The position numbers and the translations under genes were made by a program. The notes below the pieces were generated by a model, which saw only the letters and a program-made list of their open reading frames with translations, did not search any database and was not told where the DNA came from. From assembly GCF_900607235.1 (NCBI RefSeq), contig NZ_LR027859.1, positions 1-64,000 of the forward strand: a stretch of DNA of 64,000 bases, read 5' to 3'. Below, in pieces: positions 8,760 to 52,165 of the stretch (position 1 is the first letter of the stretch; each line of letters opens with the position of its first letter). The stretch is from Olivibacter jilunii (GTDB lineage: Bacteria; Bacteroidota; Bacteroidia; Sphingobacteriales; Sphingobacteriaceae).

Positions 8760-9480
8760 AAATCTCTTTTAAGGTGACCACTTCATCCAATGAGGTTGCC
8801 CGCTGGATGCTCAGTTTAATGTTTTCGTGATTGAATTTTTTCAGGTCGGTAAGGTTCCGATCGATTTTATCGGCTGCACCGGCAATGATTTCCAGTCTGG
8901 CGGCATCCGACATCTGTGTTTTAAAGCTGTTCACCACTAATAAAAGCTCATCCGCATTTTTGACGCTTGCATCCAGTATCCCTGAATAAACTTTCTCCAT
9001 AACGGAAATCTCTTCGGGCGAGAAATGTTTATCACGTTTAAAGAGATTCCATGCCCACTTATATTCATTGACCAGTTCAACCTGTTTTGCCGTGAGTTCT
9101 TTCAGGCGTTTGTAATAGGTAACAGCTGATTTGATTTCCCAAAGTTCCTGATAGTATTTACGGTAGAGTTCTTTCTGTTTTTCCGTCCAATCGGCAATTT
9201 CGGTGAGTTTCAGCTTGGAAAGCTGATTTTCCAATACTTTCTGGGCATTCTGTAGCCATATCGCTTCGTTCTGCAAGCGTTGTATCTTTAGATCTACCGC
9301 TTTGATGACCCTTTTTACGCCCGTGCGGATCACTTCCGCTAGGGCAATCTGTGCGCTGGCCCCTTTCGGTACACCTACAAACAACGTGGCGGCGCTAAGG
9401 GGAAGCATAATCATATACTTCTTCATAATCTTCCTGATTTTGTGCGTCAAATTTTTTATAGTTTTCATTAGCTTATTCAT
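8743..9480 (-). CDS. traI: Conjugal transfer protein TraI (VirB5-like position)
   Basis: 245 aa, signal peptide around residues 18-43 (MKKYMIMLPLSAATLF ... GASAQ), then a long helical mature region (LKIQRLQNEAIWLQNAQKVL, YYKRLKELTAKQVELVNEYK) ending in a NADELLLVVNSFKTQMSDAARL block. The ATG overlaps the traG stop as TAATG, which supports the start at 9480 even though a second Met lies 4 codons in. Size, signal peptide and place downstream of traG match Bacteroidetes TraI. It begins a run of three related secreted proteins. Confidence 0.85.
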   Translation of the reverse strand: MNKLMKTIKNLTHKIRKIMKKYMIMLPLSAATLFVGVPKGASAQIALAEVIRTGVKRVIKAVDLKIQRLQNEAIWLQNAQKVLENQLSKLKLTEIADWTEKQKELYRKYYQELWEIKSAVTYYKRLKELTAKQVELVNEYKWAWNLFKRDKHFSPEEISVMEKVYSGILDASVKNADELLLVVNSFKTQMSDAARLEIIAGAADKIDRNLTDLKKFNHENIKLSIQRATSLDEVVTLKEIYGIQE

Positions 9481-11933
9481 TATTGACCGAGTGTTTCTTT
9501 GACAAGCATCTCAATACCTTTCTGCATACTACCATATCGCAGGGCGTATTCCTGTACCTTTACCTTTTCACTGGCCTCCGTGGTATAGGTCCAATACTCT
9601 TTGGGTGATACTTCGGTACGGTAGACCTTGCTGTGTCCACCAAGGCTGATAAACACCTCCTTGTACGAGTGGTCGGGATCGTTAGCTTTGTTCATGGATA
9701 GCACCAGTGCTTTCTCCTTATCCGTAAGCCCCAGCAGTTCCTGTACCTGCTCAAACTTGTTGGCATATTTGGACTGATCGAGCAATATCTTCGTGTCAGA
9801 ATTATTAATGATGGCATTTTTTACGATGGGCGAACTGATAATGTCCTCGATTTCCTGCGTCACTACGATAGGTTCACCAAAGAACTTGCGCATGGTTTTC
9901 CATAGGTAGCGCACATGTTCGGCCATACTATCTTTTGCAATTGCCTTCCATGCTTCTTCCAGCAGCACAACTTTCCTGATCTGCGGTATTTTCCGCATCT
10001 TTGATATAATCATTTCCATTATGACAAGGGTAATCACAGGAAAAAGCACGGGGTGGTCTTTCACTGCATCCAGTTCCATCACAATGAACCGTTGATGAAG
10101 TAAGTCCAGATTTTCATTGGCGTTCAACAGGTAATCAAACTCCCCACCCTTGTAGTAAGGATTGAGTACATAAAGAAAACTCCCCAGGTCAAAATCTTTT
10201 TCCTTTACCTGCGCTTCTTTAAGTACCGGCGAATATTCGGATAAGAGAAATTCGTAAAAGCTGTTGAATGAAGGAAAGATGTCGGGATTTTCGTCTAAGT
10301 AAGCGTAGTAAAAGGTTAGGGCATTGGATATCGCAACATACTCGGACCTTTTGTAAGGTTCGCTATCCTTTTTCCATAAGGATAACAGCAAGGTCTTAAT
10401 GCTTTCTTTTTTTTCGGTGTCGAGCGAGCTACCTTCAGGCAGATAGAAAGGATTGAAACGTATGGGGTCATCATCCGAATAAGTAAAATAGTAACCGCCT
10501 ACCAGATCGCACAATCCCTTATAGCTGTGGCCAATATCCACAATAATGATATGTGCACCCTGCTCATGGTAGCTCCGCATGAAATGGTTGGTCAGAAAAC
10601 TTTTTCCCGAACCCGAAGGACCCAATATAAATTTTGCCCGATTGGTGATCCATCCCTGTTTCCAGGGCTCGTCCGAAATATCCACATGCACGGGTCGACC
10701 ACTTATCCGGTCTCCAAGACGGATACCGAACGGACTGATGCTATCTTTATAGTTGGTTTCCAGATTGAAGAAACATGCAGCCTGCTCGGCAAAGCTGTCA
10801 AAAGTATCATTGATGGGAAAATCGGCCCCTGCTCCGGGCATTCCGGCGTACCATATCTGGGCCATGCCGTCTGTCTCCTGTTTGGCCGTGCAGTCCATTT
10901 GAGCAAGTGCCGAACTGACCTGATTTCTAAGTTCTGCATCTTCCGGTTTATCCGACCATACCAGCACGTTGAAATGCGCTTTAATAGGCAGCCGCTGCTC
11001 ACCGATGGCCTCGTTCAGAAAGCCGTTGACTGCCTCCATTGCCAGGGCGTTTTCCCTGCTGTACATCGAAAGAGATTGTAGCCGGAGCTTTTTAGATTCC
11101 AGCGCCTTGATCGTTTTTTGCGGATCTTCGATCAGTATATATTGGTTGTAAATATGATTACAATTTAAGAGCTGCCCTAATGGACTTGCAAAACCAATAC
11201 TGAACTTGGTCCGATCTGTACTGTATTTTTCATAGTTGATCCTGCTTCCGCACAGGGCAGGAAGGTTCTCGGTATCAGCAAGTGTATACAGCTGACAGTA
11301 CCGGTCACCTATTTTCAAACCATTTTGCAGATTAATGTCACGTACTATCGACTGCTCGTTTTCTGTTAACAGAAAACAGTAACGTTCCATAATCCCTGCC
11401 TTTACCGACGTTCCCGCTAACTCATCATTTCTCAATCGCCTCGGCCTAATAAATCCGCTATCTGTTAATATCCGTTCGAATTGCCCCGCGCTGTCCAGAA
11501 AATGTTGGAAAAGGTTTTCGTCCACGGTTTGCGCCGGAACAATCGTCCTCCGTAAAAGATTGTTATAAGCGGATGTGGCAGGCTTGCGCCCATTTGGCTT
11601 TTTGGTCAGGAAAAGATAGCAGGAATGAGCCAGATAAGGTCGTTCATTAAAAAACTTTTCACTGCTACGGGCAAGGAAACCATCCTTTCCTTCGTAGTCT
11701 GCTTTATAGCTCGCCTGTGTGTGCCAATCCTGTTTATGTAGGACGGTATGGTTTTGCAGTACCTTGATTGCCTTGACAAAGGTGCTGTGATAAGCCGTAT
11801 AATCCCGTTCCGATAAAGTGAAAATCTCGGGCAGGGTCAGTTCATAGGCTACCGTAATATCTCCCTGTCTGCTGAGTATACAGTCGTGCTCCACTTTGTA
11901 AATAGGAAATATGTTTGTTGCTTCGGCTATCAT
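9480..11933 (-). CDS. traG: Conjugation ATPase TraG (VirB4 family)
   Basis: 817 aa cytoplasmic or membrane-associated ATPase that powers assembly of the mating apparatus and substrate transport. Walker A is GPSGSGKS at residues 438-445; the Walker B-type segment is RKVVLLEEAW near residue 660, followed by WKTMRKFFGEPIVVTQEIED. The N-terminal third is the VirB4-type domain (FPIYKVEHDCILSRQGDITV). Length fits the family's usual 800-850 aa. ATG at 11933, 9 bp after traF. The assignment is very secure. Confidence 0.97.
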   Translation of the reverse strand: MIAEATNIFPIYKVEHDCILSRQGDITVAYELTLPEIFTLSERDYTAYHSTFVKAIKVLQNHTVLHKQDWHTQASYKADYEGKDGFLARSSEKFFNERPYLAHSCYLFLTKKPNGRKPATSAYNNLLRRTIVPAQTVDENLFQHFLDSAGQFERILTDSGFIRPRRLRNDELAGTSVKAGIMERYCFLLTENEQSIVRDINLQNGLKIGDRYCQLYTLADTENLPALCGSRINYEKYSTDRTKFSIGFASPLGQLLNCNHIYNQYILIEDPQKTIKALESKKLRLQSLSMYSRENALAMEAVNGFLNEAIGEQRLPIKAHFNVLVWSDKPEDAELRNQVSSALAQMDCTAKQETDGMAQIWYAGMPGAGADFPINDTFDSFAEQAACFFNLETNYKDSISPFGIRLGDRISGRPVHVDISDEPWKQGWITNRAKFILGPSGSGKSFLTNHFMRSYHEQGAHIIIVDIGHSYKGLCDLVGGYYFTYSDDDPIRFNPFYLPEGSSLDTEKKESIKTLLLSLWKKDSEPYKRSEYVAISNALTFYYAYLDENPDIFPSFNSFYEFLLSEYSPVLKEAQVKEKDFDLGSFLYVLNPYYKGGEFDYLLNANENLDLLHQRFIVMELDAVKDHPVLFPVITLVIMEMIISKMRKIPQIRKVVLLEEAWKAIAKDSMAEHVRYLWKTMRKFFGEPIVVTQEIEDIISSPIVKNAIINNSDTKILLDQSKYANKFEQVQELLGLTDKEKALVLSMNKANDPDHSYKEVFISLGGHSKVYRTEVSPKEYWTYTTEASEKVKVQEYALRYGSMQKGIEMLVKETLGQ

Positions 11934-13326: not shown

Positions 13327-14190
13327 TTAAAATCGTCTATTTTGGATGTCCGGGCGATATGCATCTTCATCATCCAGCTTTTGGATTATAGCTTTACCCA
13401 TTTCGTCAATATATTTGGTACGACTGAGCCTTTTGCGCTGCTTGATTTCGGCAAATCTTCTGTAAGGGCGTCCGATTTTTACATTGAAGAGAATTTCCAG
13501 CTTACGGACAATTTCACCTATTCCCGCGTGACCCTTGTTGATCTGTCCGGTACAGTACCATCCGTAGGCAGTTTCCAGCAAATTAATGCTTTCTCCGGTC
13601 CAAACCATGTCGTTCCCCGCTTCGATGTCGGTAACATTGTCCTTTCCATCTATCAGCTTCCGTAGATAGGTGGTCATACGCTCATTGGAAAGAATCTTAC
13701 CGATGAGATAATCTGCCGGGGTGGAGAAACGTTCGTCGTAGTCAATCCGTACCGGACAGAGCCATGACGGTGGTTCTGTAGACGAACGCATAAACAGAAG
13801 GCGGTCGAGGTGGTCAGCTCCGGAACGATGATAGCTGTGAAGTTCACGGTTGTCGCGATAGAATTTCTCGATCCCTTTGAGGAGATAACGGTAATATTTC
13901 TTAAGTTGATCGGCCGTGCCTTCCGGTTTCGTCAATTCAATCCGTTGTCTGGCAGAATAATAAAGTACCTGACTTATAAACGTAGGCTTTTTAGTCTTAA
14001 AAAAAGCTATTTCTTCCTGTTCACTGCTAAAGGTATAGTTTACAGTCCTGTTTTTAAGTTCAACGAGATAAGAACGCGCAGTCAGCAATTTTTTGGCAAT
14101 TTCCAGCTTATCTGTTATTTCTTCCTGTTCGATCATTGCCAGCTCATCTGAAAGTTGCCGGTAAAGATTATTGGCGATTTCGAGTATCAT
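13327..14190 (-). CDS. rteC: RteC-type ICE regulatory protein
   Basis: 287 aa, soluble and helical. The C-terminal half (LLETAYGWYCTGQINKGHAG, then IVRKLEILFNVKIGRPYRRF and EIKQRKRLSRTKYID) is the RteC domain. In CTnDOT, RteC is needed for excision and is itself controlled by the RteA/RteB two-component system. The ATG at 14190 is preferred over a TTG two codons upstream. Here the nearby two-component system is of LytS/LytTR type, so that system may control this gene; that link is inference. Confidence 0.88.
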   Translation of the reverse strand: MILEIANNLYRQLSDELAMIEQEEITDKLEIAKKLLTARSYLVELKNRTVNYTFSSEQEEIAFFKTKKPTFISQVLYYSARQRIELTKPEGTADQLKKYYRYLLKGIEKFYRDNRELHSYHRSGADHLDRLLFMRSSTEPPSWLCPVRIDYDERFSTPADYLIGKILSNERMTTYLRKLIDGKDNVTDIEAGNDMVWTGESINLLETAYGWYCTGQINKGHAGIGEIVRKLEILFNVKIGRPYRRFAEIKQRKRLSRTKYIDEMGKAIIQKLDDEDAYRPDIQNRRF

Positions 14191-14346
14191 AAGCAAAAAT
14201 TTTGGTGCGCTACAAATACTCAGGTTTTACGGATGGAAATAAAGTGGTGAAGGTGGTGTCGGAACAGCTACATGTGTAATATCAGAGCTTATTTACGGCC
14301 TATTAAAGGTATTAGGTGGTGAAAAAATGAGAAAAAATGTGCAATA

Positions 14347-14610
14347 TTAGTCAAAACCTTCACTGAAGAACTCTTTGGGTGTCACATTAAGTGCTTTCAT
14401 GACTTTCAAAAGGCTTTTGTACTGTAAGTTTTCGCCTGCCTCATAGCGACCATATTGTGCTCGCGCTAGATCATGGGCATTGGCAAATTTTTCGTAATTG
14501 GCATACCCGGCTTTGATCCGGAGTGCTTTTATCCTTTCTCCCAGTTTTCTTAAATCTTCATCTTCCGATGGTGATATTTCCTTTTGCGACATACAAACAA
14601 AATAAGCCAT
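14347..14610 (-). CDS. XRE-family HTH transcriptional regulator
   Basis: 87 aa with a single helix-turn-helix: LRKLGERIKALRIKAGYANY, then FANAHDLARAQYGRYEAGEN and KSLLKVMKALNVTPKEFF. It is a Cro/CI-type DNA-binding domain with almost nothing else. A second ATG at 14592 also precedes the domain. It faces the 14689 gene across three tandem 14-bp repeats, which are the obvious operator for it. Confidence 0.85.
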   Translation of the reverse strand: MAYFVCMSQKEISPSEDEDLRKLGERIKALRIKAGYANYEKFANAHDLARAQYGRYEAGENLQYKSLLKVMKALNVTPKEFFSEGFD

Positions 14611-14632
14611 AAGGATATTTATATGTTACCAT

Positions 14633-14674
14633 TAATAAGTTACTACTAATTAGATACTACTAATAAGTAGTAAA
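14633..14674. promoter_or_regulatory. Three tandem 14-bp repeats (operator candidate)
   Basis: Three head-to-tail units of exactly 14 bp: TAATAAGTTACTAC (14633-14646), TAATTAGATACTAC (14647-14660) and TAATAAGTAGTAAA (14661-14674). The third is partly inverted, so TTACTACT and AGTAGTAA also form a dyad. They fill the gap between the divergent XRE gene and the alpha-CTD-like gene, ending 15 bp before the latter's ATG, which is a position for repression. Confidence 0.7.
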
Positions 14675-14688
14675 ATATTCTTATTTTT

Positions 14689-14934
14689 ATGCCGATGAAT
14701 AAGATGTCGGAACTGGAAAAATTAACGGGCCTGGAGACACTTCCCCTGAACCAGCACCCCTTAAGCGCTAGTTTTATTAAAACGTGCAACAAAATTGGAT
14801 GGCTAACGATAGAAGATATTTTCAATGCCGGACTGGAAAAGGTTGCAGAACATCCAAAGATCAACGACGAATGGTTTGATGAACTGTTGGCTTACCTGAG
14901 AGAGCTTGGGATGCTATATAGGATGAACCCTTGA
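14689..14934 (+). CDS. Small RNA-polymerase alpha-CTD-like (HhH) protein
   Basis: 81 aa. Residues about 22-76 follow the pattern of the RNA polymerase alpha-subunit C-terminal domain: 'LPLNQHPLSASFIKTCNKIG' then WLTIEDIF, and DELLAYLRELGM. In alpha-CTD this is 'LsvRaxNcLkxaGIxTvgdLl ... GxkSldEixxxLxxlGL'. The usual arginine of the first helix is not kept. No alpha N-terminal domain is present. It is divergent from the XRE gene and converges on the 401-aa gene with abutting stop codons (TGATCA). Role is unknown; a transcription adaptor is a reasonable guess. Confidence 0.6.
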   Translation: MPMNKMSELEKLTGLETLPLNQHPLSASFIKTCNKIGWLTIEDIFNAGLEKVAEHPKINDEWFDELLAYLRELGMLYRMNP

Positions 14935-16140
14935 TCAGGGATACTTGGAATTTATGTAATTCAACATTGAGGTTAACATCTGTTTTACTTTATTGATCAC
15001 CTGTTGAGAGGGAATGGTATCCTTACTCAGTAAACTATGCAGCGCCAGGTGTTCTCTGTTGGGTGTTCCGATAAAGTCTGCTATAAAAGCAAATAACATT
15101 TTCTTGGTATCCACCACAAGTATTTTCATTTCCAACAGCACGCGGAAAAAGAAAAGTAGCTGCCGTTCGGTAAGGGAAACCTGAAAATGGTAGCGGCCCG
15201 TTGCCGGATCAATTGCACCCACCGGAAATTTTGACCATAAGCTTCGACGCTTGCGGAGCTCTTTACGCTTACGTTTACTGTATGTTAAAAGTTGCTGCCT
15301 TATGGACGGCATCTGGTTATCGGCGGCCTGTTTTTTTACTTCAGGGATCAGCGCCAACTGGTTTCTGTAAATTAGCCATTGTTCTTCTTTTTTATATTCA
15401 TCGTCCAGATTTTCCACAGCCTTTGCCATTTTTTCTTTGATAAGATGACAGAAGGGGCCATAATTGAAATTCAGGGTTATCAGCTGTTCGATCAGCTCCC
15501 GTTCGTAGCGATCCGAATATTTCAGGTAAGACAGACGTGAAGGCAATTCAGCTACAAGCCTGATGGCATAATGCCAATGATGCCATTTAAAATAACTCAT
15601 CATGCTTTTATCAGAAAACCCGGAAAAGTAGTTTTGTAGGGAGACGATCAGCTGTCGATCCACGCGATTTTTATATAGCTCTCCCAATAATGTGCGTACA
15701 TTCCTCAAAAAGGTTGTTGACCTGAAATAGGGTATAAAAGGGGGCAGTGGTCTGTCTTCGTGAAAACAATCGGGATAGTGCTGAAATAAGCCTTCCAGAA
15801 ACCGGATTCCCTGGTTCAGTGCATAGTAATAGACCGCAGCCCGGTAGTTATTCCCGTAAGCTATCTTTATTCTTCTTTCCTTTTCCTGTTCAAGTTTCCT
15901 CCACCACTCCTGCATTACATCGGTTATATTGAGTTGGTATTTTCCTATTAATGTATACCTGCTGAACGGCTCATGGAGGACTGTAGCCGAGATATTTGTT
16001 TCCAGACTTAAAAAATATTGTTTTATGACCCGTTTATAAGACGTGAAGCTCTCTTTATAATACGTTTCTGATATCAATACCTCATTAATGAGTTCATGAA
16101 GGTCATCGGCGCGCACAATTCGGTTCGATCTGGCATACAT
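14935..16140 (-). CDS. Hypothetical 401-aa protein, distal gene of the LytTR operon
   Basis: Soluble, basic and helical (FLSLETNISATVLHEPFSRY, ... YRAAVYYYALNQGIRFLEGL). The C-terminus (LTERQLLFFFRVLLEMKIL ... LLSKDTIPSQQVINKVKQML) has a layout like the C-terminal part of RteC and of other Bacteroidetes mobile-element regulators, but the similarity is weak and read by eye. It starts 13 bp after the LytTR gene, so it is part of that operon and may be its output or effector. I do not recognise a named family. Confidence 0.6.
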   Translation of the reverse strand: MYARSNRIVRADDLHELINEVLISETYYKESFTSYKRVIKQYFLSLETNISATVLHEPFSRYTLIGKYQLNITDVMQEWWRKLEQEKERRIKIAYGNNYRAAVYYYALNQGIRFLEGLFQHYPDCFHEDRPLPPFIPYFRSTTFLRNVRTLLGELYKNRVDRQLIVSLQNYFSGFSDKSMMSYFKWHHWHYAIRLVAELPSRLSYLKYSDRYERELIEQLITLNFNYGPFCHLIKEKMAKAVENLDDEYKKEEQWLIYRNQLALIPEVKKQAADNQMPSIRQQLLTYSKRKRKELRKRRSLWSKFPVGAIDPATGRYHFQVSLTERQLLFFFRVLLEMKILVVDTKKMLFAFIADFIGTPNREHLALHSLLSKDTIPSQQVINKVKQMLTSMLNYINSKYP

Positions 16141-16153
16141 CTCATGTTGGTGA

Positions 16154-16861
16154 TTAGTGTTGATACAACGTCTTTAGAACATAGTCCTTATATGTTTTTC
16201 CGATGATCAGCCCTGTTTTATTTTTCAGTATAACCATACCTTCATCGATCAGGTCAATCATCTTTATAGATATGATATAAGATCGGTGGATTCGTATAAA
16301 ACCGTCAGTCAGACGCAGTTCGGATTCAACATCGTCCATCCGCATGGAAGTCAATACAAATTCATCATGTTTGTGGAATATTACATCGTTTCCCCTTGCT
16401 TCTACATAAATGATATCATTGAAATCTATCTTCTTTAATTTTCCTTTATGTTCGATCTGTACAAAGATGTAATCGTTTTTTACTGTGGGTAATTCCAATG
16501 TTCTGTGCAGTATCCTTTCCTTCAGCTTTTCCACTGCTTTTGCAAATCGATCGAATTGAACAGGCTTTAACAGATAATCCACTGCATCGAGCTCGATACT
16601 TTCGATTGCAAATTCTGTATAAGCAGTACAGACCACCACTTTAACCGAAGGGTCAAGCTCGCGCATCACTTCGGTACCCGTCATTTCATCCATTTCCATG
16701 TCAAGAAAAACTGCATGAACATTTAGTTTCGGGATCATTTTTAAACCTTCGAGTGGCCTTGTGGCGGTTCCTATCAAATGGACGTTCGGTACCTGCTCCA
16801 GATAACGGGAAATCTGTTCCAGTGCGGCAGGTTCATCATCAATTGCGAAACAGTTTATCAT
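16154..16861 (-). CDS. LytTR-family response regulator
   Basis: 235 aa. Residues 1-118 are a receiver domain: acidic pair IDDEPAA, phosphoacceptor Asp in VFLDMEMDEMTG (about residue 54), T/S and K in VVCTAYTEFA and DYLLKPV. Residues about 135-233 are a LytTR DNA-binding domain (YIFVQIEHKGKLKKIDFNDI, YVEARGNDVIFH, FIRIHRSYIISI). It overlaps the kinase stop by one base (TAATG), so the two are translated together. LytTR regulators bind pairs of short direct repeats about 21 bp apart; such a pair is seen at 19537-19565. Confidence 0.95.
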   Translation of the reverse strand: MINCFAIDDEPAALEQISRYLEQVPNVHLIGTATRPLEGLKMIPKLNVHAVFLDMEMDEMTGTEVMRELDPSVKVVVCTAYTEFAIESIELDAVDYLLKPVQFDRFAKAVEKLKERILHRTLELPTVKNDYIFVQIEHKGKLKKIDFNDIIYVEARGNDVIFHKHDEFVLTSMRMDDVESELRLTDGFIRIHRSYIISIKMIDLIDEGMVILKNKTGLIIGKTYKDYVLKTLYQH

Positions 16862-18051
16862 TATATTTCTTTTGTATCACTGGAAAAATCAATAAATAGC
16901 TCAACTGTATAAATCTCATTGTCTTCCGTACGACTAAGTCTCGCCTTGTTCTTAAAAGCACCTTTCAGTCTCCGTTCCACATTTTTCAAGCCAACATGGC
17001 TGCCCGAAGTATCCAATGTTTTGCTGATCCTTTTTTTATTGGAACTATAGAAATAAATCTTATCCCGGTTGACCACGATCTTGATCTGTAAGGGATATAG
17101 CGGATCTGATAGGTCTCCATATTTGAAGGCATTTTCCACAAGTGTAATAAAGGACAAAGGTGGAATCGAATGCAGATAGCGATCGCCTTCAAATTCAAAT
17201 ACAATATTTTTTCCTTTGCCGAAACGTCTCCGATTGATTTCGAGGTAAATTTCCAGATATTCCAGCTCCTTATGCACCGGCACAAGCTGTTTGCCTTTCA
17301 CCGCATTGTCCAACGAATAACGCATCATCATGGAAAGCAGGTAGATGCTCTCGGCCAATGACTTGGATAAAGAGAGCGCCTCTGTATAGATAAAATTTAG
17401 TGAATTATGCAGAAAATGGGGATTGACCTGGGCTCTTAAAAATGCCTGTTCATATTCGAACTTTTCCCGTTCCATTTCGTAATGTGCTTTTTCCATCCGG
17501 CGTTTATACGCCAGATTGGCAAACCATTTCAGTATAAAATACACGATAATGGCATAGCTGGCGTATTTGATATAAGGGGAAAGTATATTGCGCAGGTACA
17601 GGCTCAGTTTAAACGGCACATCCTCATAATATAATTTAGCCCCAAATAGCGGCAATATTCCATAGATGCAAACATAGCCCAGTGCTGCCAGTATAAAGAA
17701 AGTGGAGATTACCAATAATATAGCGATCCCAATATTTATTTTCCGGCTTTCGATAAATTTAAAGAGAAAGAAATTACTGTAAAAGATAATCGAATACAAC
17801 AAGCAGAGAAAAAGTATATGACTGTAGTCGACATAACTGATTTTGGGTAGGTTGTAGATATATACAAACTGGGCATAGATTATCCAACAGATAAAATTGA
17901 ACAACAGGGGGTGTTTACGGAAAAAAGTGGCCATATCTTCCGGATTTTTTGGTTCATCATTCCACAAGATAAAAAAATTAGGCCATTTTCCGTAAAAAAG
18001 TGTGCAAAGAACGTTATTTCTCTTTGCACTGATAGCATCTAATGATTGCAT
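16861..18051 (-). CDS. LytS-type sensor histidine kinase
   Basis: About 396 aa. Four membrane helices lie between residues 50 and 180, followed by a coiled-coil linker (RMEKAHYEMEREKFEYEQAF), the phosphoacceptor block QVNPHFLHNSLNFIY, and an ATPase domain (LSFITLVENAFKYGD, SHVGLKNVERRL). Helices of this kind without a large periplasmic domain suit sensing of a membrane-bound or hydrophobic ligand. The frame opens at a TTG (18081), but the ATG at 18051 has GAAGAGA before it and is preferred. It is the partner of the adjoining LytTR regulator. Confidence 0.93.
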   Translation of the reverse strand: MQSLDAISAKRNNVLCTLFYGKWPNFFILWNDEPKNPEDMATFFRKHPLLFNFICWIIYAQFVYIYNLPKISYVDYSHILFLCLLYSIIFYSNFFLFKFIESRKINIGIAILLVISTFFILAALGYVCIYGILPLFGAKLYYEDVPFKLSLYLRNILSPYIKYASYAIIVYFILKWFANLAYKRRMEKAHYEMEREKFEYEQAFLRAQVNPHFLHNSLNFIYTEALSLSKSLAESIYLLSMMMRYSLDNAVKGKQLVPVHKELEYLEIYLEINRRRFGKGKNIVFEFEGDRYLHSIPPLSFITLVENAFKYGDLSDPLYPLQIKIVVNRDKIYFYSSNKKRISKTLDTSGSHVGLKNVERRLKGAFKNKARLSRTEDNEIYTVELFIDFSSDTKEI

Positions 18052-18064
18052 ATTCTCTTCTTTT

Positions 18065-19198
18065 TTAGATTTCCAGAACAACTCTGCCGGTTATGAGATC
18101 GCTCATATGATTCCGCTGTAATAAAGGGACTGTAAAAGGATAATCCCTTCTGTAAATCTGTTCCAGCCGCTTATATAACCAGTGTTCGATATCGAAACAT
18201 TGATAATCTCTTTTCCTGAAAAGAAAATATTTGCCGGTTATACTGAAAAAGCTATAATCCTCTTCGTTGAATCTGATCAGTCTTTTCTTTTTTCCTTCTG
18301 TGATAATTGGTTCGGATATCTGTTCCGCGATCGGATTGACGATATCGGCATGCTCATGCAAATGCAGCCATGTTTCCCATTGCCAGGGCTTTATGGAGAC
18401 AACTTTCTCCAGATGTTTATAGATTCGTGAAACGGCCTGCCCTATAAATATTTGCCTATTAAGCTCCTTATTCGGTAATATCGGAGGAAAAAAATCGAGA
18501 CAGGGAACACGCTTCCATTGCCGTGTAGAAACTACCGGATAAATCGGGGATTTGCTCAGGTAAGAAATAAAAGCTGCCCCTGCTCTTACTTTGACATGTT
18601 GGTTCAGAAAAGGGATGGATATAAGGTTACGGCTCGTCAGGTCGTCTCCTGTTCCGGTATTACCATCTACATAAACTAAAATATTTTTTCCGTCCCTTAA
18701 TTCTCTATTTATTCGCAGTAGGCTACTTTTATCGTTGGCATTGATCAGACTAAAACCAAGGTGTTCTATTTTTTTGTTGTCATATTTAGAATCAACCAGC
18801 TCTGTTTCCCTTTGCATCCCGTCTTTTGAAACCACCAGTACAAATGGAATATCATTTTTTGCCAGGTAATGCCCGATCATCCGGAAAGATCCGCTATGAA
18901 AGGTAGCAATTACTCCCGGTCTGGCTTTTATGTCCTGCAAAGCATAGCCATGAAAGCGAACTTTAAGGTTTTTGGGTACATCTGGGAGTGACTGTTCAAA
19001 ATAGCTTTGCTGCTGGTTGGTCAACAGTTTAAAGAAATTTGACTCGTGCTCTCCATATTCCATCGATGGAAGAAAATTTCGAAAGCTTGCACTCACCACC
19101 TGAAATTTGTACCAGAAGGGGTTTGTAGGTTCTAAAGGAACCTTTATACCACTGATAGCAAAGCTGAGAGTATGACTTTTTACAAGAGCATTCTCCAT
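18065..19198 (-). CDS. LpxL/HtrB-like acyltransferase
   Basis: 377 aa. The middle follows the LpxL/HtrB lauroyl/myristoyl-transferase pattern: GVIATFHSGSFRMIGHYL at about residues 94-111 (family HxxxxD/E region), DIPFVLVVSKD, RDGKNILVYVDGNTGTGDDL and IPFLNQHVKVRAGAAFIS. Two things are odd: the catalytic H-x4-E of LpxL is HSGSFR here, without the acid, and the usual N-terminal membrane helix is missing. It sits between a 42-codon peptide gene and a LytS kinase, so its acceptor may be the peptide and not lipid A. Family likely, substrate unknown. Confidence 0.7.
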   Translation of the reverse strand: MENALVKSHTLSFAISGIKVPLEPTNPFWYKFQVVSASFRNFLPSMEYGEHESNFFKLLTNQQQSYFEQSLPDVPKNLKVRFHGYALQDIKARPGVIATFHSGSFRMIGHYLAKNDIPFVLVVSKDGMQRETELVDSKYDNKKIEHLGFSLINANDKSSLLRINRELRDGKNILVYVDGNTGTGDDLTSRNLISIPFLNQHVKVRAGAAFISYLSKSPIYPVVSTRQWKRVPCLDFFPPILPNKELNRQIFIGQAVSRIYKHLEKVVSIKPWQWETWLHLHEHADIVNPIAEQISEPIITEGKKKRLIRFNEEDYSFFSITGKYFLFRKRDYQCFDIEHWLYKRLEQIYRRDYPFTVPLLQRNHMSDLITGRVVLEI

Positions 19199-43238: not shown

Positions 43239-43607
43239 TCAATTATTCCTCGTTTGCACGCGTGCTTGTAGACGATTTGCATCCCGTTTACTTTTATCGA
43301 CCTGTTCCTCTAAATTCTTGATCTGGTCAGAAGAGCAACCTTGGTACATTATGTTCACTCCCTGATTACCATCATAATTGTTAAAGTGGTTTGTATAAGT
43401 GGCCTTTTCTTGATAGTTGAGTATATATTCTGGGGCTACTCCGAAAATCTCCGATAGCTCGTAAAGTCTTGACACTGTAACGTCTGCAACATTATTTTCT
43501 ATATTACTATACGCTTTAACTGTTATACCGAGAGCCTTTGCTACATCCTCTTTGTGCAAGCCTTTTTCCTTTTCTCGGATTTCTTTAATATTCTCTCCAA
43601 TCTTCAT
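43239..43607 (-). CDS. XRE-family regulator, tandem copy 3
   Basis: 122 aa: HTH from residue 1 (MKIGENIKEIREKEKGLHKE, ALGITVKAYSNIENNVADVT), then YELSEIFGVAPEYILNY, and a tail with YDGNQGVNIMYQG followed by a short coiled coil (LEEQVDKSKRDANRLQARV). It is homologous along its length to the two genes upstream, at 43619 and 44028, with 11 and 10-bp gaps. Known members of the family bind operators as dimers; the tail may multimerise or bind a ligand. Confidence 0.85.
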   Translation of the reverse strand: MKIGENIKEIREKEKGLHKEDVAKALGITVKAYSNIENNVADVTVSRLYELSEIFGVAPEYILNYQEKATYTNHFNNYDGNQGVNIMYQGCSSDQIKNLEEQVDKSKRDANRLQARVQTRNN

Positions 43608-43618
43608 ATCTTAAATAT

Positions 43619-44017
43619 TTAAAATTCTATATTATTGTTTTTCAATAGTGCTTCAAGTAAAGAGATTCGTTTCCGTTCGCTTTCTAGCAATTCCTCTTGT
43701 AATTTAAGGATTTTCTTATTGTTTTCGGACTCTACATTTGTTCCGCCTTGATGCATAATATTAGTCCCCTTATTGCCGCTTTTGTTGTGAAAATAATTAT
43801 AGAATTCTTTCTTCGATTGCTTATAGTTCAGGATATATTCTGGACTACATTCAAATATTGAAGCAATCTCTTCCAGTCTAGTTAAACTGATATCTGTAAC
43901 ATTATTCTCAATGTTCCCATATGCCCTTTCGGAGATATTTAACCTATCGGCCATATAGCTCCTTTTAAAGTTTTTTTCGGTCTCTCTAATTTCTCTTATA
44001 TTATCGCCAACTTTCAT
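43619..44017 (-). CDS. XRE-family regulator, tandem copy 2
   Basis: 132 aa: VGDNIREIRETEKNFKRSYM, LNISERAYGNIENNVTDISL, LEEIASIFECSPEYILNY, then NKSGNKGTNIMHQGG and a coiled coil (ILKLQEELLESERKRISLLE). Same plan as the flanking XRE genes; the tail motif NxGxNIMxQG is the most constant element outside the HTH. Target and ligand unknown. Confidence 0.85.
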   Translation of the reverse strand: MKVGDNIREIRETEKNFKRSYMADRLNISERAYGNIENNVTDISLTRLEEIASIFECSPEYILNYKQSKKEFYNYFHNKSGNKGTNIMHQGGTNVESENNKKILKLQEELLESERKRISLLEALLKNNNIEF

Positions 44018-44027
44018 GTTAAAAGGT

Positions 44028-44411
44028 TCAAAAATCTATTGGTATATTGTTTTCGCGCAACAACTTTTCAAGCTTGGGTATCCTTTTTAGCTCTTCACTA
44101 TACAACTCTTTGTATGCTTTCCTTACTTCTTTTTGATCAATTCCCTGAATCTTAATATTTGTTCCCGAATTATCACTATGATTAAAAAAATAATTTTTTA
44201 TTCCGTTGGTCGGTTCGTTAAGCTGAAGTAATTCTACAGGAGTTAAAGACAAAACACTACAAATTGCGTCCAACATACTTAAAGTTATGTCAACATCATC
44301 ATTTTCAATTGATTTGTATTCATCAACACTAATTTTCAATTCGTCGGCCATAAACTCTTCAGTATACTTGTGAGCTCTTCGGATCTCAATGATGTTTTTC
44401 CCTATTTTCAT
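44028..44411 (-). CDS. XRE-family regulator, tandem copy 1
   Basis: 127 aa from the ATG at 44411 (the frame is open to 44462 but only from an unlikely start). MKIGKNIIEIRRAHKYTEEF, LKISVDEYKSIENDDVDITL and LDAICSVLSLTPVELLQL are the HTH; the tail has HSDNSGTNIKIQG and a charged helix (YSEELKRIPKLEKLLRENN). It is the most divergent of the three and the first gene of the operon, divergent from the 77-aa gene at 44584. Confidence 0.83.
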   Translation of the reverse strand: MKIGKNIIEIRRAHKYTEEFMADELKISVDEYKSIENDDVDITLSMLDAICSVLSLTPVELLQLNEPTNGIKNYFFNHSDNSGTNIKIQGIDQKEVRKAYKELYSEELKRIPKLEKLLRENNIPIDF

Positions 44412-44817: not shown

Positions 44818-45125
44818 CCCCTTTCCCCTTCTTTCCAAAAAGAAGTTCAACCTAATTTTTAACCAAACCGTAATCACAGAAAATGAATTTAACGCTCATA
44901 AGGGCTTTGCTGTGCCCAAAAGGCGAGCTATCGGCTTTCGGCAATCGGCTATCAGCTAAATCCCTGTTCAAGAAAAAAAGTACTAATAAAAGAAATATCA
45001 CCTATCTCCACGCTACTGTCCGTCCCCATTTTTTGGGACGAACGACCGTGTGCAGGGACGAACGACATAAAATTATTGCAAATGGCACTCTAGGGATTAT
45101 TAACAGATGTTTCCCTAAGCTAGAC
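44818..45125. other. Region upstream of susC with short repeats
   Basis: 308 bp with an open frame in phase with susC but no coding character. It contains ATCGGCTTTCGGCAATCGGC near 44930 and two copies of GGGACGAACGAC at about 45036 and 45056. No promoter can be picked with confidence. Confidence 0.4.
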
Positions 45126-48100
45126 ATGAAGCCCAATTTGGCCAAAGTGGCCTTGCGCGGCCTTAATCCTTATAGCTCATACCTTAAACCTTACACCATA
45201 TACCTTATAACCTTAAAGATTTTGTTCTGTGTTTGTTTGGCACACGCCCGGCAGTCCTCCTCCACGGAGGCTGCCACCGGCGTGGCTTTGCAGCAAATAA
45301 CGCTGAAGGGTAATGTATTGTCAGCGGTTAATGGCGAACCGCTTGAAGGAGCCACCGTACGTACCGAAATCACCTCTATAAAGACTGATCAGAAAGGGAA
45401 TTTCACTGTCATAACCAAAAAGAACAAGGGAACATTTACGGCCACCTATTTGGGTTATCAAACCAAGGAAATTCAGTACGATATTTCTACCAGCCAGTAC
45501 TATACCGTAAAACTTGATCCACAGCAAAATACCCTAGATGAAACCGTCGTAATTGCTTATGGACAAACTACCAAACGCTTCAACACCGGTAGTGTTGGGC
45601 GTATAACCGCAGCAGAAATTTCAAGGCAACCGGTTGCCAATCCTATAGCTGCGTTACAGGGGAGAATTCCGGGAGTAGAGATAACACAACAGAGCGGACG
45701 TACGGGATCAAATTTTAATGTTCTTATCCGTGGAAGAAGTTCCATCGACAACGGCAACGAGCCATTATATATTGTAGACGGGGTACCTTGGTTGAGTAAT
45801 AGTATAGGCCAGATAACGGTTACGGGAGGTTCAAGCAGTCCATTCAATAACTTAAATCCGAACGATATAGAAAGTATAGAAGTGTTAAAAGATGCGGATG
45901 CAACTGCTATTTACGGTTCACGAGGAGCTAACGGTGTTATTTTAATTACCACAAAGAAAGGAAGCGTCGGAAAAACCGAAGTTGATGTTAATGTATATAA
46001 CGGATTTAATAAGGTCGCAAATATTGTTCCTTTAATGAATACCGAAGAATATCTGAATATGCGGAGGGAAGCATTGAAAAACGACAACATTACACCTACG
46101 GTTACAAATGCACCTGATCTTCTGCAATACGATCAAAATACATTTACAGATTGGACGGATCTCTTGATCGGAAGTAGCTCAAATGTCACCAATGGTCAAA
46201 TTACGTTATCCGGTGGAACCGGCGAAACGAATTTTAGGCTCTCGGGAGGATTTCGATCGGAGGGAAACGTATATCCTGGCGAAGAACTAAATAGGCGCTA
46301 TAGTGGTCAGTTAAACCTTAATCACAGTACAAATGACAAAAAGTTCCTGGCAGTTATGAGTGTCGGTTATTCCAACGACAACAATAATATTCTACCATTC
46401 GATCTGACTTCCGGGATATATTCTACTCCTAATTTAAAGCCTTTTGAAGATGATGGTACCATGCTTTATGGAAACTCTCCTTTTTCGATGACCTTACATC
46501 ATTATAATCAATTACAAACCAATCTTATTACAAACATCAACTTATCATACTCACTTTTTAAAAGCGTAACCTTACGATTAAATAATGGATATACAAAAAC
46601 AGATAATGATCAAATAGAGGTTACTCCTTTAGCTGCATTTGGGAATAATTCTACAAGAACAAGCGGCGAATCCCGTTTTTCAAATTCAGCATTTAGCAGC
46701 TGGATTTTAGAGCCCCAACTTTCATATCGGAAGACTTTCAGCGATCATGCCTTTGACATTTTGTTCGGAGGTACGTGGCAACAGGAATCTCTTAAAGGAA
46801 CGAGAATCAATGCAACTGATTACAGCAGTGAAGAACTTCTATATACTACCACTGGAGCGGCATCAATTACCGCAAGTGAACAATACAGCTTATATAAATA
46901 TCAGGCAGTCTTCGGAAGAATAAACTACCAATTTAAAAATCGTTATTTAATTAACCTGACAGGCAGAAGGGATGGATCGTCGCGATTTGGACCAGGGAAA
47001 CAATTTGCAAACTTTGGAGCGCTCGGAATCGCATGGATATTCTCTGATGAGCATTTTATAAAAAACAAATTGCCAAAAATGAGCTTTGGAAAAGTGCGTG
47101 CAAGCTTTGGCACTACCGGTAACGATAAAATCGGTGATTATCAATTTTTGGACACGTATGGAGGAGTTGCCTATCCTTACGATGGTGTTAGCGGGTTAAA
47201 GCCACAACGCCTATACAATCCAGATTACGGTTGGGAGAGCAATCGCAAACTTGAATTTTCTGCCGATTTGGGTTTTTTCGATAACAAAATTTTGTTTTCA
47301 GCAGGATGGTTCAGAAACAGAAGCGGTAATCAACTTTTGCAATATTCCCTTCCAACACAAACAGGCTTTACCGGAGTTACAAGAAATTTACCGGCGTTAG
47401 TGGAAAATAGGGGATGGGAAATAGAGTTGAACACCATAAACCTTGCGAACACGGCAATAAAATGGAACACAGCATTCAACATAACCATTGCGGGTAATAA
47501 GCTGTTAGATTTTCCAAATCTTGAAAAATCTAGTTATGCAAGCCAATATTCCATAGGTGAATCGTTGAACATTATGAAGGTTTATCCATACTTGGGTGTA
47601 GATCCAATGACCGGCCTTTGGAGTGTGGATTTAAACGCCGGCAGATCAGTCGTCAAGGATTTAAGCACAAAATTTTACGGCGGACTAAATAATCAATGGC
47701 AATACGGTCGATTTCAATTGGATGTATTTATTCAGTTTGTGAAAAAGAATGCAAGAAATTATCTCTCCAGTTTACCGGCAACAGCCGGTATTCAGGGAGC
47801 CAACATGCCAAAACTGTTTGAATCGCGATGGCAAAATCCCGGCGATATTACCGATGTACAAAGGTTCGGCACCGTTGCACCCGCGACAACAGCGAGGACA
47901 AACTTCCTGATTTCAGAAGGGGCATTTGCGGACGCATCTTTTTTACGGCTAAAGAATATATCCTTAAGCTATTCACTTCCCGCATCGGTGACCAATAGAG
48001 TAAAAATGAAACTAGTAAGGTTTTATCTACAGGGACAAAACCTCCTAACCATTACAGGCTATAAAGGCAATGATCCCGAAGTAACTAATATGACGGTATT

Positions 48101-48146
48101 ACCACCATTACGGACCGTTACTCTGGGAACACAAATTACCTTTTAG
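45126..48146 (+). CDS. SusC/RagA-type TonB-linked outer-membrane protein
   Basis: About 1006 aa from the ATG at 45126, which is followed by a hydrophobic signal (YTIYLITLKILFCVCLAHA). CarboxypepD-like domain (LSAVNGEPLEGATVRTEITS), then the SusC plug signature PIAALQGRIPGVEITQQSG, LIRGRSSIDNGNEPLYIVDG, IESIEVLKDADATAIYGSRG and ANGVILITTKKG. The barrel ends in PPLRTVTLGTQITF. It forms a nutrient or peptide transporter with the SusD at 48167. An upstream in-frame stretch to 44883 is not coding-like. Confidence 0.92.
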   Translation: MKPNLAKVALRGLNPYSSYLKPYTIYLITLKILFCVCLAHARQSSSTEAATGVALQQITLKGNVLSAVNGEPLEGATVRTEITSIKTDQKGNFTVITKKNKGTFTATYLGYQTKEIQYDISTSQYYTVKLDPQQNTLDETVVIAYGQTTKRFNTGSVGRITAAEISRQPVANPIAALQGRIPGVEITQQSGRTGSNFNVLIRGRSSIDNGNEPLYIVDGVPWLSNSIGQITVTGGSSSPFNNLNPNDIESIEVLKDADATAIYGSRGANGVILITTKKGSVGKTEVDVNVYNGFNKVANIVPLMNTEEYLNMRREALKNDNITPTVTNAPDLLQYDQNTFTDWTDLLIGSSSNVTNGQITLSGGTGETNFRLSGGFRSEGNVYPGEELNRRYSGQLNLNHSTNDKKFLAVMSVGYSNDNNNILPFDLTSGIYSTPNLKPFEDDGTMLYGNSPFSMTLHHYNQLQTNLITNINLSYSLFKSVTLRLNNGYTKTDNDQIEVTPLAAFGNNSTRTSGESRFSNSAFSSWILEPQLSYRKTFSDHAFDILFGGTWQQESLKGTRINATDYSSEELLYTTTGAASITASEQYSLYKYQAVFGRINYQFKNRYLINLTGRRDGSSRFGPGKQFANFGALGIAWIFSDEHFIKNKLPKMSFGKVRASFGTTGNDKIGDYQFLDTYGGVAYPYDGVSGLKPQRLYNPDYGWESNRKLEFSADLGFFDNKILFSAGWFRNRSGNQLLQYSLPTQTGFTGVTRNLPALVENRGWEIELNTINLANTAIKWNTAFNITIAGNKLLDFPNLEKSSYASQYSIGESLNIMKVYPYLGVDPMTGLWSVDLNAGRSVVKDLSTKFYGGLNNQWQYGRFQLDVFIQFVKKNARNYLSSLPATAGIQGANMPKLFESRWQNPGDITDVQRFGTVAPATTARTNFLISEGAFADASFLRLKNISLSYSLPASVTNRVKMKLVRFYLQGQNLLTITGYKGNDPEVTNMTVLPPLRTVTLGTQITF

Positions 48147-48166
48147 GCATCAATAAACTAAAAATA

Positions 48167-49483
48167 ATGAAAAGCATATACTTATTTATGATCTTGATTT
48201 ATCTGGCATCCTGCAAAAAATTTGTTGAGGTCGATATGCCACCCAATCAGTTATTTTCCGAGAATGTCTTTAATGATAAAACTTCGGCAAACGCCGCATT
48301 TTCCGGTATATACAGTGAGTTATCTACTATAACGCACCCATTAAACGCAGATATACAGATCGCAGCGTCTATGTACAGCGGTATTTTAGAATATACAAAA
48401 TCTGAACAGAGCTATCTCGATTTTGGAAATAAGGCGATCCAGATCAATAACTCAATCGTAGGTAGTATGTGGACCGCTACATACCAAACGATTTATCAGG
48501 TCAATTTGGCAATACAAAAACTCCAGGCTTCTTCTTTGGAGTTATCGTTGAAAAATCAATTATTGGGAGAAGCTAAGTTCATTAGGGCATTCTGCTACTT
48601 CTATTTTGTAAGTCTATACGGTGGTGTTCCATTAATTACGGAAAATGCATATGAAAATAATGCAGGAGAAGCTCGTGCTATACCTGCAGCAATACATGAA
48701 CAGATTTTAGCAGATTTAACAGATGCTATCGAATTGCTTGCGGATATCCGAGGCGAGGGTGAGAAAATCAGGCCCGATTATTTCTCTGCTTGCGCTCTGT
48801 TATCTAAAGTGTATCTATCCGTTGGAAATTGGCAGAAAGCTTTTGACTTCGCATCTTTAGTTATTGACCAGGGAGAATACGAGCTGGAACAAGATTTGCG
48901 CAATGTGTTCGCAAAGGAAAGTAAAGAAACGATTTGGCAACTAAAGCCATCATTTCCTTTTTACAACACCAACATCGGTCGAATTTTAACGCCTTCTTTA
49001 ACAAATAACACGATTCCTAATTTCTGCTTAAGTGACCAATACATACGGTCATTTTTACCTGAAGACAAGAGATTTAAGGAATGGATTGGAAATAAAACCG
49101 TCGAAGAAAGGTCTTTCGCATTTCCTTATAAATACAAAGTACAGTCAGGAGGAAATCTGACAGAATATCAAGTGATATTCAGATTGGCCGAAATATATCT
49201 GATCCGGTCGGAGGCGGCTGTGAATCTTGGGAATTTTGAAGAAGCGCTGCAGGATATCAATAAAATAAGAGATCGTGCCGATCTGCCCCCTGTCGTTAAT
49301 GAAATTTCGAAGACACATCTTATTGATATTCTCACTACGGAGGTACGTCATGAATTATTTACGGAATGGGCGAATGAATGGCTTGTTGAAAAGAGGCTTA
49401 ATGATACTTCCATAAAGCTATGGCCGATTCCCTTAGCTCAGTTGGAGCTAAATCCAAATCTTGAACAAAATAATGGCTATTAA
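48167..49483 (+). CDS. SusD/RagB-family nutrient-binding lipoprotein
   Basis: 438 aa with lipobox LASCKKFVEVDMPPNQL. SusD features follow: FIRAFCYFYFVSLYGGVPLI, LLSKVYLSVGNWQKAFDFAS, and in the C-terminal part VIFRLAEIYLIRSEAAVNLG and INKIRDRADLPPV. It partners the SusC upstream (20-bp gap). Length is at the short end of the family. The substrate cannot be read from the sequence. Confidence 0.93.
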   Translation: MKSIYLFMILIYLASCKKFVEVDMPPNQLFSENVFNDKTSANAAFSGIYSELSTITHPLNADIQIAASMYSGILEYTKSEQSYLDFGNKAIQINNSIVGSMWTATYQTIYQVNLAIQKLQASSLELSLKNQLLGEAKFIRAFCYFYFVSLYGGVPLITENAYENNAGEARAIPAAIHEQILADLTDAIELLADIRGEGEKIRPDYFSACALLSKVYLSVGNWQKAFDFASLVIDQGEYELEQDLRNVFAKESKETIWQLKPSFPFYNTNIGRILTPSLTNNTIPNFCLSDQYIRSFLPEDKRFKEWIGNKTVEERSFAFPYKYKVQSGGNLTEYQVIFRLAEIYLIRSEAAVNLGNFEEALQDINKIRDRADLPPVVNEISKTHLIDILTTEVRHELFTEWANEWLVEKRLNDTSIKLWPIPLAQLELNPNLEQNNGY

Positions 49484-49484
49484 A

Positions 49485-50849
49485 ATGAAAATCAGATTTT
49501 ATTTGAGTGTATTTACTATCATATTATTTAGCATGAACGGTGCCTATGCCCAATCCATGGATATTAAGGAACTAAAGGTAAATGACACTATACCCAGCGA
49601 GTTGCTACTAGGCACGCCAAAGGATAGAACTGAACCGATCAAATTTTCGGACATTAAAAGAAAACTTATAGTGATAGACTTTTGGGCAAGCTACTGTCAA
49701 CCCTGTATCAATGCCCTTCCTAAATTTCAAAAACTTCAACATATTTTTAGAGATGAAGTGCAGTTCTTAATCGTTACACATGAAGACGAAAATCGGGTAG
49801 AAGGCTTACTGAGACGATCAGAAATTACAAAAGAGATTGACTTTTCCATACCATTTTTGGTTCGGGATACCATACTGAGAAAATTGTTCCCACATCAGGT
49901 AATACCGCATGAAGTAATTATTGACTCCTCGGGTATCATTAAAGCCATTACATATGAATCGGAAATCACGGAAAAAAACATTCGCTTAGCTCTATACACC
50001 GATAAAATCAATGTAGCTTCCAAGAATGATTTTCAAGCTAATATCGATTCCATAAAATCGGACGAGCCTGAAATATGGTTATCTAGCCTACAGTTGGGAG
50101 GAAATGGTAGGGGCAGTGTAAAACACTATCGGAATAACGAATACATAAAATCCATAAGCTTGGAATTTACTCCGATAAATTTGTTTTATAAAGTTTATTC
50201 CTATTTCAAACTTGGTCAATTAGCTCCGCTGAATGTGAAAAGGGTTTTGGTACAGGTGAACGATTCTGCAAATTTTAAGAGATATGCAAATAGAGATTTA
50301 CGTCCATTACCTTTCTTTCCGAGCCGATTTCCATACTTACATTACAACAATCGTCAAGAATACGATAATGATAACACATATATCTACAAACTCCATGTAC
50401 CTTATGGAACAGCAGATTCTAGTATTTTCCGTGTTGCGATGGAAGATTTAAATCGTTATTTCCCGATTAAGGGAAAGGTTGAAAAACGAAAGGTACCAGT
50501 GTGGGTTATCCGCCGGAATAATAAACAACCGATAAAACCTTCAGACGGCGATAGCTCCAGATTAATACTTACAAATACGGAGATCGGCATTGTAAATAAG
50601 CCAATAGACGACATTTTCTTTTTACTGACCCGTTTTGTAAACGCTGATCCATTCATAAATGAAACTGGCCTGAAATATCCCATAGATCTTGTAGTAAATT
50701 TCAAAAACTCTAAGCTGCGAGATCCAAAAAATGGACTCGTTAACAATAGTCCTTTGGATAGCGAAATACTAAAAAACACGCTTGAGGACAAAGGATTGAC
50801 AATGGTTCGGGAATATCGGGAAGTCGACTTATTAATCGTTAGTGACTAG
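49485..50849 (+). CDS. TlpA-type thioredoxin fused to a DUF3738-like domain
   Basis: 454 aa. Signal peptide (YLSVFTIILFSMNGAYAQ), then a thioredoxin fold of TlpA/ResA type with active site WASYCQPCINALP (CxxC, here C-Q-P-C). Residues about 200-450 resemble the TIGR03435/DUF3738 domain (NETGLKYPIDLVVNF and LKNTLEDKGLTMVREYREVD). It follows susD with a 1-bp gap; upstream in-frame starts at 49461 and 49473 overlap susD. A redox protein next to a SusCD transporter and MauE hints at handling of Cys-containing peptides. Confidence 0.85.
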   Translation: MKIRFYLSVFTIILFSMNGAYAQSMDIKELKVNDTIPSELLLGTPKDRTEPIKFSDIKRKLIVIDFWASYCQPCINALPKFQKLQHIFRDEVQFLIVTHEDENRVEGLLRRSEITKEIDFSIPFLVRDTILRKLFPHQVIPHEVIIDSSGIIKAITYESEITEKNIRLALYTDKINVASKNDFQANIDSIKSDEPEIWLSSLQLGGNGRGSVKHYRNNEYIKSISLEFTPINLFYKVYSYFKLGQLAPLNVKRVLVQVNDSANFKRYANRDLRPLPFFPSRFPYLHYNNRQEYDNDNTYIYKLHVPYGTADSSIFRVAMEDLNRYFPIKGKVEKRKVPVWVIRRNNKQPIKPSDGDSSRLILTNTEIGIVNKPIDDIFFLLTRFVNADPFINETGLKYPIDLVVNFKNSKLRDPKNGLVNNSPLDSEILKNTLEDKGLTMVREYREVDLLIVSD

Positions 50850-51867
50850 TTAGGCGATTTAATCCCCGTATTCTGGAGATTAGTACGATATTATCATAAT
50901 ACAGCGCCGCTATAACGCCTTTATTATAAGCTAAGCTTTTGAAAATCTTGTTATTATGTAAAGGGAGATAAAAGCTCCCTTTATATTTTTCATTCATGAA
51001 ATCGTAAATATCAACTGGCACATTTTTCAAATATTTCTGTCTCTCTTCATTGTCTGCTTTCAAGTTGGAACAGACAAAAATTAAATTTTTATAGATACAG
51101 CTTTTTTTGTTCGTTACCAGCAATGGTTTTCGACGATCCATATCGGGATTATACTTGATTGTATCAATAGTGTTCAGTGTTTTTTTTCTATGCAGAGTAG
51201 TGTCAAAAATTACAATGTTGTTGTTATAATAGTGCATATAGATACAGAGGCCAAATGCCTCGGCATAGTGCAGCTGACCATCTGTACTTAGTCCGCTATT
51301 ATTGCTTTTGAAAGTAATATCATGCTCCCATTGCGAAATCGGATCATTTGTATTGATATACCTAAATCTCATATCCTTGGTATTACGAGAATACTGCCTG
51401 ATCACGAAGGAGTGTCGGGAAATTCTTAGCGCATATGAAAAAGGGTTATCTGTTATTCTTTTTTGGGATAGTGGTTCAAGCTCGAAAATAGATGCAAGTT
51501 TTTTTGCAAAAAGGGTGACATCATCGCAATTTCCGCTCATTGAATAAGAGAATGTACTACCTATTATTGCCTTAAGAGAATCAGATAAGTTCCATTGTAA
51601 TGTCTCTGTCCTGAGAGCACTAAGATGCAGGACTTTTATGATGCCCGGTGAATCAGTTGAAAAAAGTATCTTCGAATCATCAAAATATATTATTTCTCTT
51701 AAAGGACTGCCGAAGTTTATCCTTTTTGGGTCCTGTAACTCTATATCTAAAAATTTTCTAAAAAAACCGTTGCTGCGCTTATTTGGAAAATCGGTGTTTT
51801 CCCAGAGTAGGAAAACAAGGCTGAGACCAAGCAAGATTGCAGCAACGATTTTAAGAACAATTGTCAT
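50839..51867 (-). CDS. Hypothetical membrane-anchored protein
   Basis: 342 aa. An N-terminal hydrophobic helix (IVLKIVAAILLGLSLVFLLW) anchors a beta-rich periplasmic domain (IIYFDDSKILFSTDSPGIIK, HYNNNIVIFDTTLHRKKT and IKSLAYNKGVIAALYYDNIV), which looks like a beta-propeller-type repeat. It is the distal gene of the minus-strand mauE - DUF6520 - 342-aa operon and converges with the thioredoxin gene with an 11-bp overlap of the ends. Family not recognised. Confidence 0.7.
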   Translation of the reverse strand: MTIVLKIVAAILLGLSLVFLLWENTDFPNKRSNGFFRKFLDIELQDPKRINFGSPLREIIYFDDSKILFSTDSPGIIKVLHLSALRTETLQWNLSDSLKAIIGSTFSYSMSGNCDDVTLFAKKLASIFELEPLSQKRITDNPFSYALRISRHSFVIRQYSRNTKDMRFRYINTNDPISQWEHDITFKSNNSGLSTDGQLHYAEAFGLCIYMHYYNNNIVIFDTTLHRKKTLNTIDTIKYNPDMDRRKPLLVTNKKSCIYKNLIFVCSNLKADNEERQKYLKNVPVDIYDFMNEKYKGSFYLPLHNNKIFKSLAYNKGVIAALYYDNIVLISRIRGLNRLTSH

Positions 51868-51877
51868 GGCTGACTAA

Positions 51878-52165
51878 TTAGAACTTAGTTGCTCCTCCGT
51901 TCCATTCCTCGATATTGTTTGGATTTCCGACTTCTTGAGCGCATTCTTGTCCCGAAGACGGACATAGTGCTTGGACTGTAGCCAAATCTCCTTCAAGTCC
52001 AAAGTTTGGATGGCTTTCATCTGTTATTCTGTACACTTCCTGAACTTTAGTCATCGGAGTTACTGAAACTTCAGCAGCATTTACTTTGTTATCATCATTC
52101 ATTACCCAGTTTGCAACACCGACCAACCCTGCGGCCAGTGTTATTCTTAAAATTATTTTTTTCAT
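51878..52165 (-). CDS. Small secreted DUF6520-type protein
   Basis: 95 aa. Signal peptide MKKIILRITLAAGLVGVANW, mature part acidic, with two cysteines in ATVQALCPSSGQECAQEV that could form a disulfide. This matches the small Bacteroidetes secreted proteins of DUF6520 type found beside MauE and SusCD genes. It sits 10 bp upstream of the 342-aa gene. The MauE and thioredoxin neighbours could form its disulfide; its role is unknown. Confidence 0.7.
   Translation of the reverse strand: MKKIILRITLAAGLVGVANWVMNDDNKVNAAEVSVTPMTKVQEVYRITDESHPNFGLEGDLATVQALCPSSGQECAQEVGNPNNIEEWNGGATKF

Follow-up and report, generated by a model that had tools for sequence, protein, structure and literature searches.

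A candidate ICE control module built around a free-standing alpha-CTD-like mini-protein in Olivibacter jilunii

An ICE of Olivibacter jilunii carries, in a conserved gene neighborhood, a gene for a free-standing protein related to the RNA polymerase alpha-CTD. The reading that we favor, with moderate confidence, is that this mini-protein has given up DNA binding and acts by protein contact within an ICE control module. The window, that is, the whole stretch of DNA analyzed, comprises the first 64,000 nucleotides of contig NZ_LR027859.1 (assembly GCF_900607235.1). The features of the module and its immediate surroundings are listed below by their positions in the window.

9480-11933, reverse strand: TraG-type conjugation ATPase (TIGR03783), which marks the ICE
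13327-14196, reverse strand: RteC (PF09357) homologue
14347-14610, reverse strand: XRE regulator, divergent from the mini-protein gene (HTH_3, 25 bits; Pfam cut-off 23)
14625-14666: three tandem 14-bp repeats within the mini-protein promoter region, a putative XRE operator
14689-14934, forward strand: alpha-CTD-like mini-protein (family fam0), 81 aa; domain at about residues 12-81, flexible N-terminus at residues 1-10
14935-16140, reverse strand: convergent partner (family fam1), 401 aa, with no Pfam family and no credible fold match
16154-16861, reverse strand: LytTR response regulator
16861-18081, reverse strand: LytS-type sensor kinase (His_kinase, PF06580)
18065-19198, reverse strand: Lip_A_acyltransferase-like gene, upstream of the kinase gene and co-oriented with it

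The mini-protein gene and that of a 79%-identical relative differ at 11, 7 and 29 sites on codon positions 1, 2 and 3, so the open reading frame behaves as a real gene. The window protein has no match in Pfam or NCBIfam, and in one relative PF03118 reached 17.7 bits, under the cut-off of 23.8. A profile of 20 relatives compared with all PDB sequences placed RNA polymerase alpha subunits first (E ~0.001), in an alignment that is ungapped over the domain, and full-length RpoA proteins were the next profile matches beyond the family itself. An AlphaFold2 model made from 12 sequences (pLDDT 79.9) was compared with known structures by Foldseek and VIA-align. The best 50 PDB entries were all RNA polymerase alpha subunits, and the top match was 1z3e_B (Z 9.0, rmsd 1.9 Å, 67 residues). 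The initial annotation had described an alpha-CTD-like mini-protein without the rest of alpha and had suggested structure prediction as a check. The predicted structure bears out this description, and the modeled alpha-CTD fold is solid. The alpha-NTD is indeed absent, as the open frame is only 81 aa, and the host genome carries a separate RpoA of 330 aa. Relatives occur in Pedobacter, Mucilaginibacter and another Sphingobacteriaceae genome, and the family spans several genera; single-protein scans of genome contigs, viral contigs and plasmids found none. A literature search found nothing relevant on free-standing alpha-CTD proteins or on this module. A second small alpha-CTD-like protein, with PF03118 above the cut-off and a cysteine-rich N-terminus, is encoded elsewhere in the host (contig C9, L035:1360-1653).

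The surface by which an alpha-CTD would touch DNA is altered in the mini-protein. Because the alignment is ungapped, residue n of the window protein corresponds to E. coli residue n + 237. We take R265, N268, C269, G296, K298 and S299 of the E. coli alpha-CTD to be DNA-contact residues. In the mini-protein, R265, S266, N268, C269, G296, K298 and S299 are replaced by S28, F29, K31, T32, N59, E61 and W62, respectively. A residue table of 49 distinct relatives, set against the alpha subunits of the host and E. coli, extends this pattern to the family. Phenylalanine occupies the S266 position in 49/49 relatives and tryptophan the S299 position in 48/49, and the E302 position is glutamate in 43/49. 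Arginine is not among the eight commonest residues at the R265 position, and glycine does not occur at the G296 position. The minor-groove Arg, Asn, Gly and Lys are thus not retained across the family, whereas host RpoA retains them. Judging from which residues contact DNA in the E. coli alpha-CTD, DNA binding appears to have been lost, and the former DNA face looks hydrophobic and suited to binding protein. With the contact residues gone and Phe and Trp in their place, the mini-protein should not occupy promoters as alpha-CTD does.

These substitutions bear directly on two other explanations of the fold. The initial annotation had proposed that the mini-protein could compete with or replace alpha-CTD at promoters; as a true alpha-CTD substitute, it would bind UP-element DNA. 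Although the fold agrees with this idea, neither the window protein nor its family has kept the equivalents of R265, N268, G296, K298 and S299, and there is no alpha-NTD to tether the protein to polymerase; we consider such a substitute highly improbable. Loss of DNA contact would suit a soluble decoy, which would keep the side of alpha-CTD that contacts proteins and draw activators or sigma region 4 away from RNA polymerase, so that host or ICE promoters are damped. The fold and length are those of an isolated alpha-CTD, which speaks for a decoy. However, the family does not conserve the positions classically used for contact (E. coli 259, 261 and 286-288), whereas it does conserve the F and W of the former DNA face. 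A decoy would also leave a constant partner gene unexplained, and we regard it as unlikely.

That partner gene (14935-16140) was overlooked in the initial annotation. In the window, its stop codon and that of the mini-protein gene abut directly (TGATCA). The wider counts refer to 51 mini-protein loci, two of which were taken twice. A partner of about 390 aa is convergent with the mini-protein in 45 of them, at end-to-end distances of -71 to +88 nt and usually with overlap; it is absent from the other six, two of which are one locus taken twice. Two copies of the partner gene lie near one mini-protein gene in L108, L116 and L117. Distance matrices over 28 loci gave r = 0.915 for the mini-protein and its partner, 0.915 for the HK-RR pair and 0.78 for the mini-protein and the RR, a co-variation in which shared ancestry and linkage are not separable from interaction. 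The partner may be called a regulator by context only. Its structural model is of low confidence (pLDDT 69) and has no credible match, although this does not argue for a new fold. Kinship with RteC (PF09357) was rejected, as there was no Pfam match and the hhalign probability was below 1% for both the full length and the C-terminal part. A search of plasmids found no copy of the partner.

The pairing invites a third explanation, in which the partner is an effector and the mini-protein is a small inhibitor that masks it in the style of an antitoxin or anti-regulator, with convergent, overlapping transcription separating the two. The stable convergent pairing and overlap of the genes and the matching divergence of the two proteins speak for such an inhibitor. 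However, convergent order is unusual among toxin-antitoxin pairs, and the partner matched no Pfam toxin domain. We regard this explanation, like the decoy, as unlikely.

The promoter region of the mini-protein gene provides evidence of regulation. Its three repeat copies, GTTACCATTAATAA, GTTACTACTAATTA and GATACTACTAATAA, are identical in 10/14 columns and are followed by a partial copy, GTAGTA, at 14667-14672. The initial annotation had noted three 14-bp repeats here, and they withstand comparison with dinucleotide shuffles, of which 0/2000 were as good at period 14 and 0/400 over periods 8-30. Its starting point, 14633, falls inside the first repeat, and the array begins 8 bp earlier. The XRE gene that it placed opposite is likewise confirmed, divergent and with HTH_3 above the Pfam cut-off. 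From the family alignment, the true XRE start is probably at 14592, which would make the shared intergenic region 96 bp long. Scans for a sigma-70-type promoter and for a terminator were empty; for sigma-70, this is expected of a Bacteroidota promoter. A 14-bp weight matrix run over the window found only isolated further sites, one of which, at 51091, scores above the array copies.

An array of the same type, with a unit of about TAGATACATCTTAT, precedes the mini-protein gene even in relatives only ~25% identical in protein. A significant array is present in 14/18 XRE-bearing loci, or 15/18 once the start in L127 is corrected, compared with 2/33 XRE-less loci. In both XRE-less exceptions, a 683-aa gene adjoins the array, and in L085 that gene separates the array from an XRE gene. 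In the other three loci with an XRE gene, the period is 14 bp but weak in L126 and 15 bp in L113, and L087 shows neither. The association is significant by Fisher's test (p ~5e-9 without the two gene-insertion loci and 3e-8 with them), although these values are optimistic as the loci are related. The array is tied to the XRE gene, which supports the view that the repeats are the XRE operator. This co-occurrence agrees with the control by the XRE protein that the initial annotation suggested, which would act by binding and repression. The possibility that the array represents LytTR-type direct repeats was dropped, as the array follows the XRE gene and LytTR sites are spaced about two helical turns apart. 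Many relatives have neither the XRE gene nor the array, so that control by XRE can be only one mode among at least two. Three similar small XRE-like ORFs (122-132 aa) also lie in tandem at 43239-44411.

A different element precedes the mini-protein gene in XRE-less relatives of one group, which includes the host's third copy (contig C4). It is a structured leader of ~180 nt that ends at the mini-protein start codon.

L128:10041-10222, reverse strand: leader on host contig C4
L091:9577-9757: leader; also found in L094, L096, L097, L110, L120, L122, L125, L134-L138 and L140

The structure of the leader comprises 50 pairs, 16 of them with compensatory changes, and its covariation score was reached by 0/500 shuffles. 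A model of the leader matched 17 of 100 relatives' genomes. In five of the leader loci that were opened, the 3' ORF added a divergent new member to the mini-protein family, with scores of 37-55 bits against the family profile compared with 10.7 for the best shuffle. In four others (L139 and L141-L143), the leader is followed by another gene, unrelated to the mini-protein. Assignment to 6S RNA or another Rfam family was rejected, as there was no Rfam match, and the leader is possibly a new RNA element.

The module is associated with conjugation genes. As the initial annotation had supposed, it is carried by an ICE. TraG and tra genes lie nearby, and more relaxase and coupling-protein genes are found at 53.7-57.0 kb of the window, which together place the whole region in an ICE. 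Across the family, TraG was found within 50 kb in 21/43 places (hand count), compared with roughly 4% expected from gene density. Other neighbors recur among the 51 loci: about 30 have kinase and regulator genes, 18 a divergent XRE gene and 12 RteC. The Lip_A_acyltransferase-like gene recurs in 5/51 loci, within the host's genus. In Pedobacter and Mucilaginibacter (L079:9420-12197, L092:13459-16473 and others), a gene for a LanB-type lantibiotic dehydratase comes after the module, convergent to the response regulator gene, which suggests a link to peptide natural-product clusters. The ICE in the window also carries genes for SusC, SusD, a thioredoxin-like protein, two uncharacterized proteins of 342 and 95 aa, MauE and a protein of 191 aa (44883-53639). 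A SusC/SusD, thioredoxin-like and MauE cassette, which in the window spans 44.9-52.8 kb, occurs in several loci, and SusC, SusD, MauE and cNMP-binding genes flank the module in other genera.

In the mechanism that we propose, with the mini-protein acting by protein contact, the XRE protein would bind the array and repress the mini-protein gene and probably also its own. The mini-protein would be made only once this repression is lifted. Through its Phe/Trp face, it would then bind the ~390-aa partner or a regulator, and this binding would alter the output of ICE control genes, namely the LytTR two-component system, RteC and the transfer genes. Because these two genes overlap tail to tail, an antisense brake might act as well. 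The mini-protein is probably part of an undescribed ICE switch. More tentatively, and with odds that we would put well short of even, an alpha-CTD may have been turned into a soluble adaptor or mimic that links the partner with the transcription machinery, or prevents such a link, and so gates ICE transfer under the control of either an XRE array or an RNA leader. If true, the adaptor would belong to a class of transcription co-regulator that has not been described before, with two alternatives for its control. To our knowledge, little is understood of how transfer is decided in Bacteroidota ICEs that fall outside the CTnDOT group. A conserved module whose alpha-CTD-like protein has lost its DNA-contact residues would connect an ICE with the transcription machinery of its host in a concrete and testable way.

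Each part of the module resembles a known system and departs from it. The mini-protein shares the fold of the RNA polymerase alpha-CTD (PF03118), aligns with it ungapped over the domain and has alpha-CTD structures at the top of its profile list. In contrast to alpha-CTD, it stands alone at 81 aa with no alpha-NTD, bears a Phe/Trp face in place of the DNA-contact residues and falls below Pfam detection. The arrangement of an HTH_3 gene divergent from the gene it would control, with repeated sites between them, is that of divergent switches of the XRE/Cro type. Unlike in those switches, the putative operator is a tandem array with a 14-bp period and the controlled gene is alpha-CTD-like. CTnDOT uses a two-component system to turn on rteC, and rteC in turn governs excision and transfer (PMC1976400). 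The window resembles the RteA/RteB/RteC region of that element (PMC1976400) in that the conjugation genes of a Bacteroidota ICE are accompanied by RteC and a two-component system. However, a LytTR/LytS-type pair replaces RteA/RteB, and the XRE regulator, the mini-protein and the ~390-aa partner are added. By analogy, the layout of the window suggests a cascade like that of CTnDOT, built from different parts.
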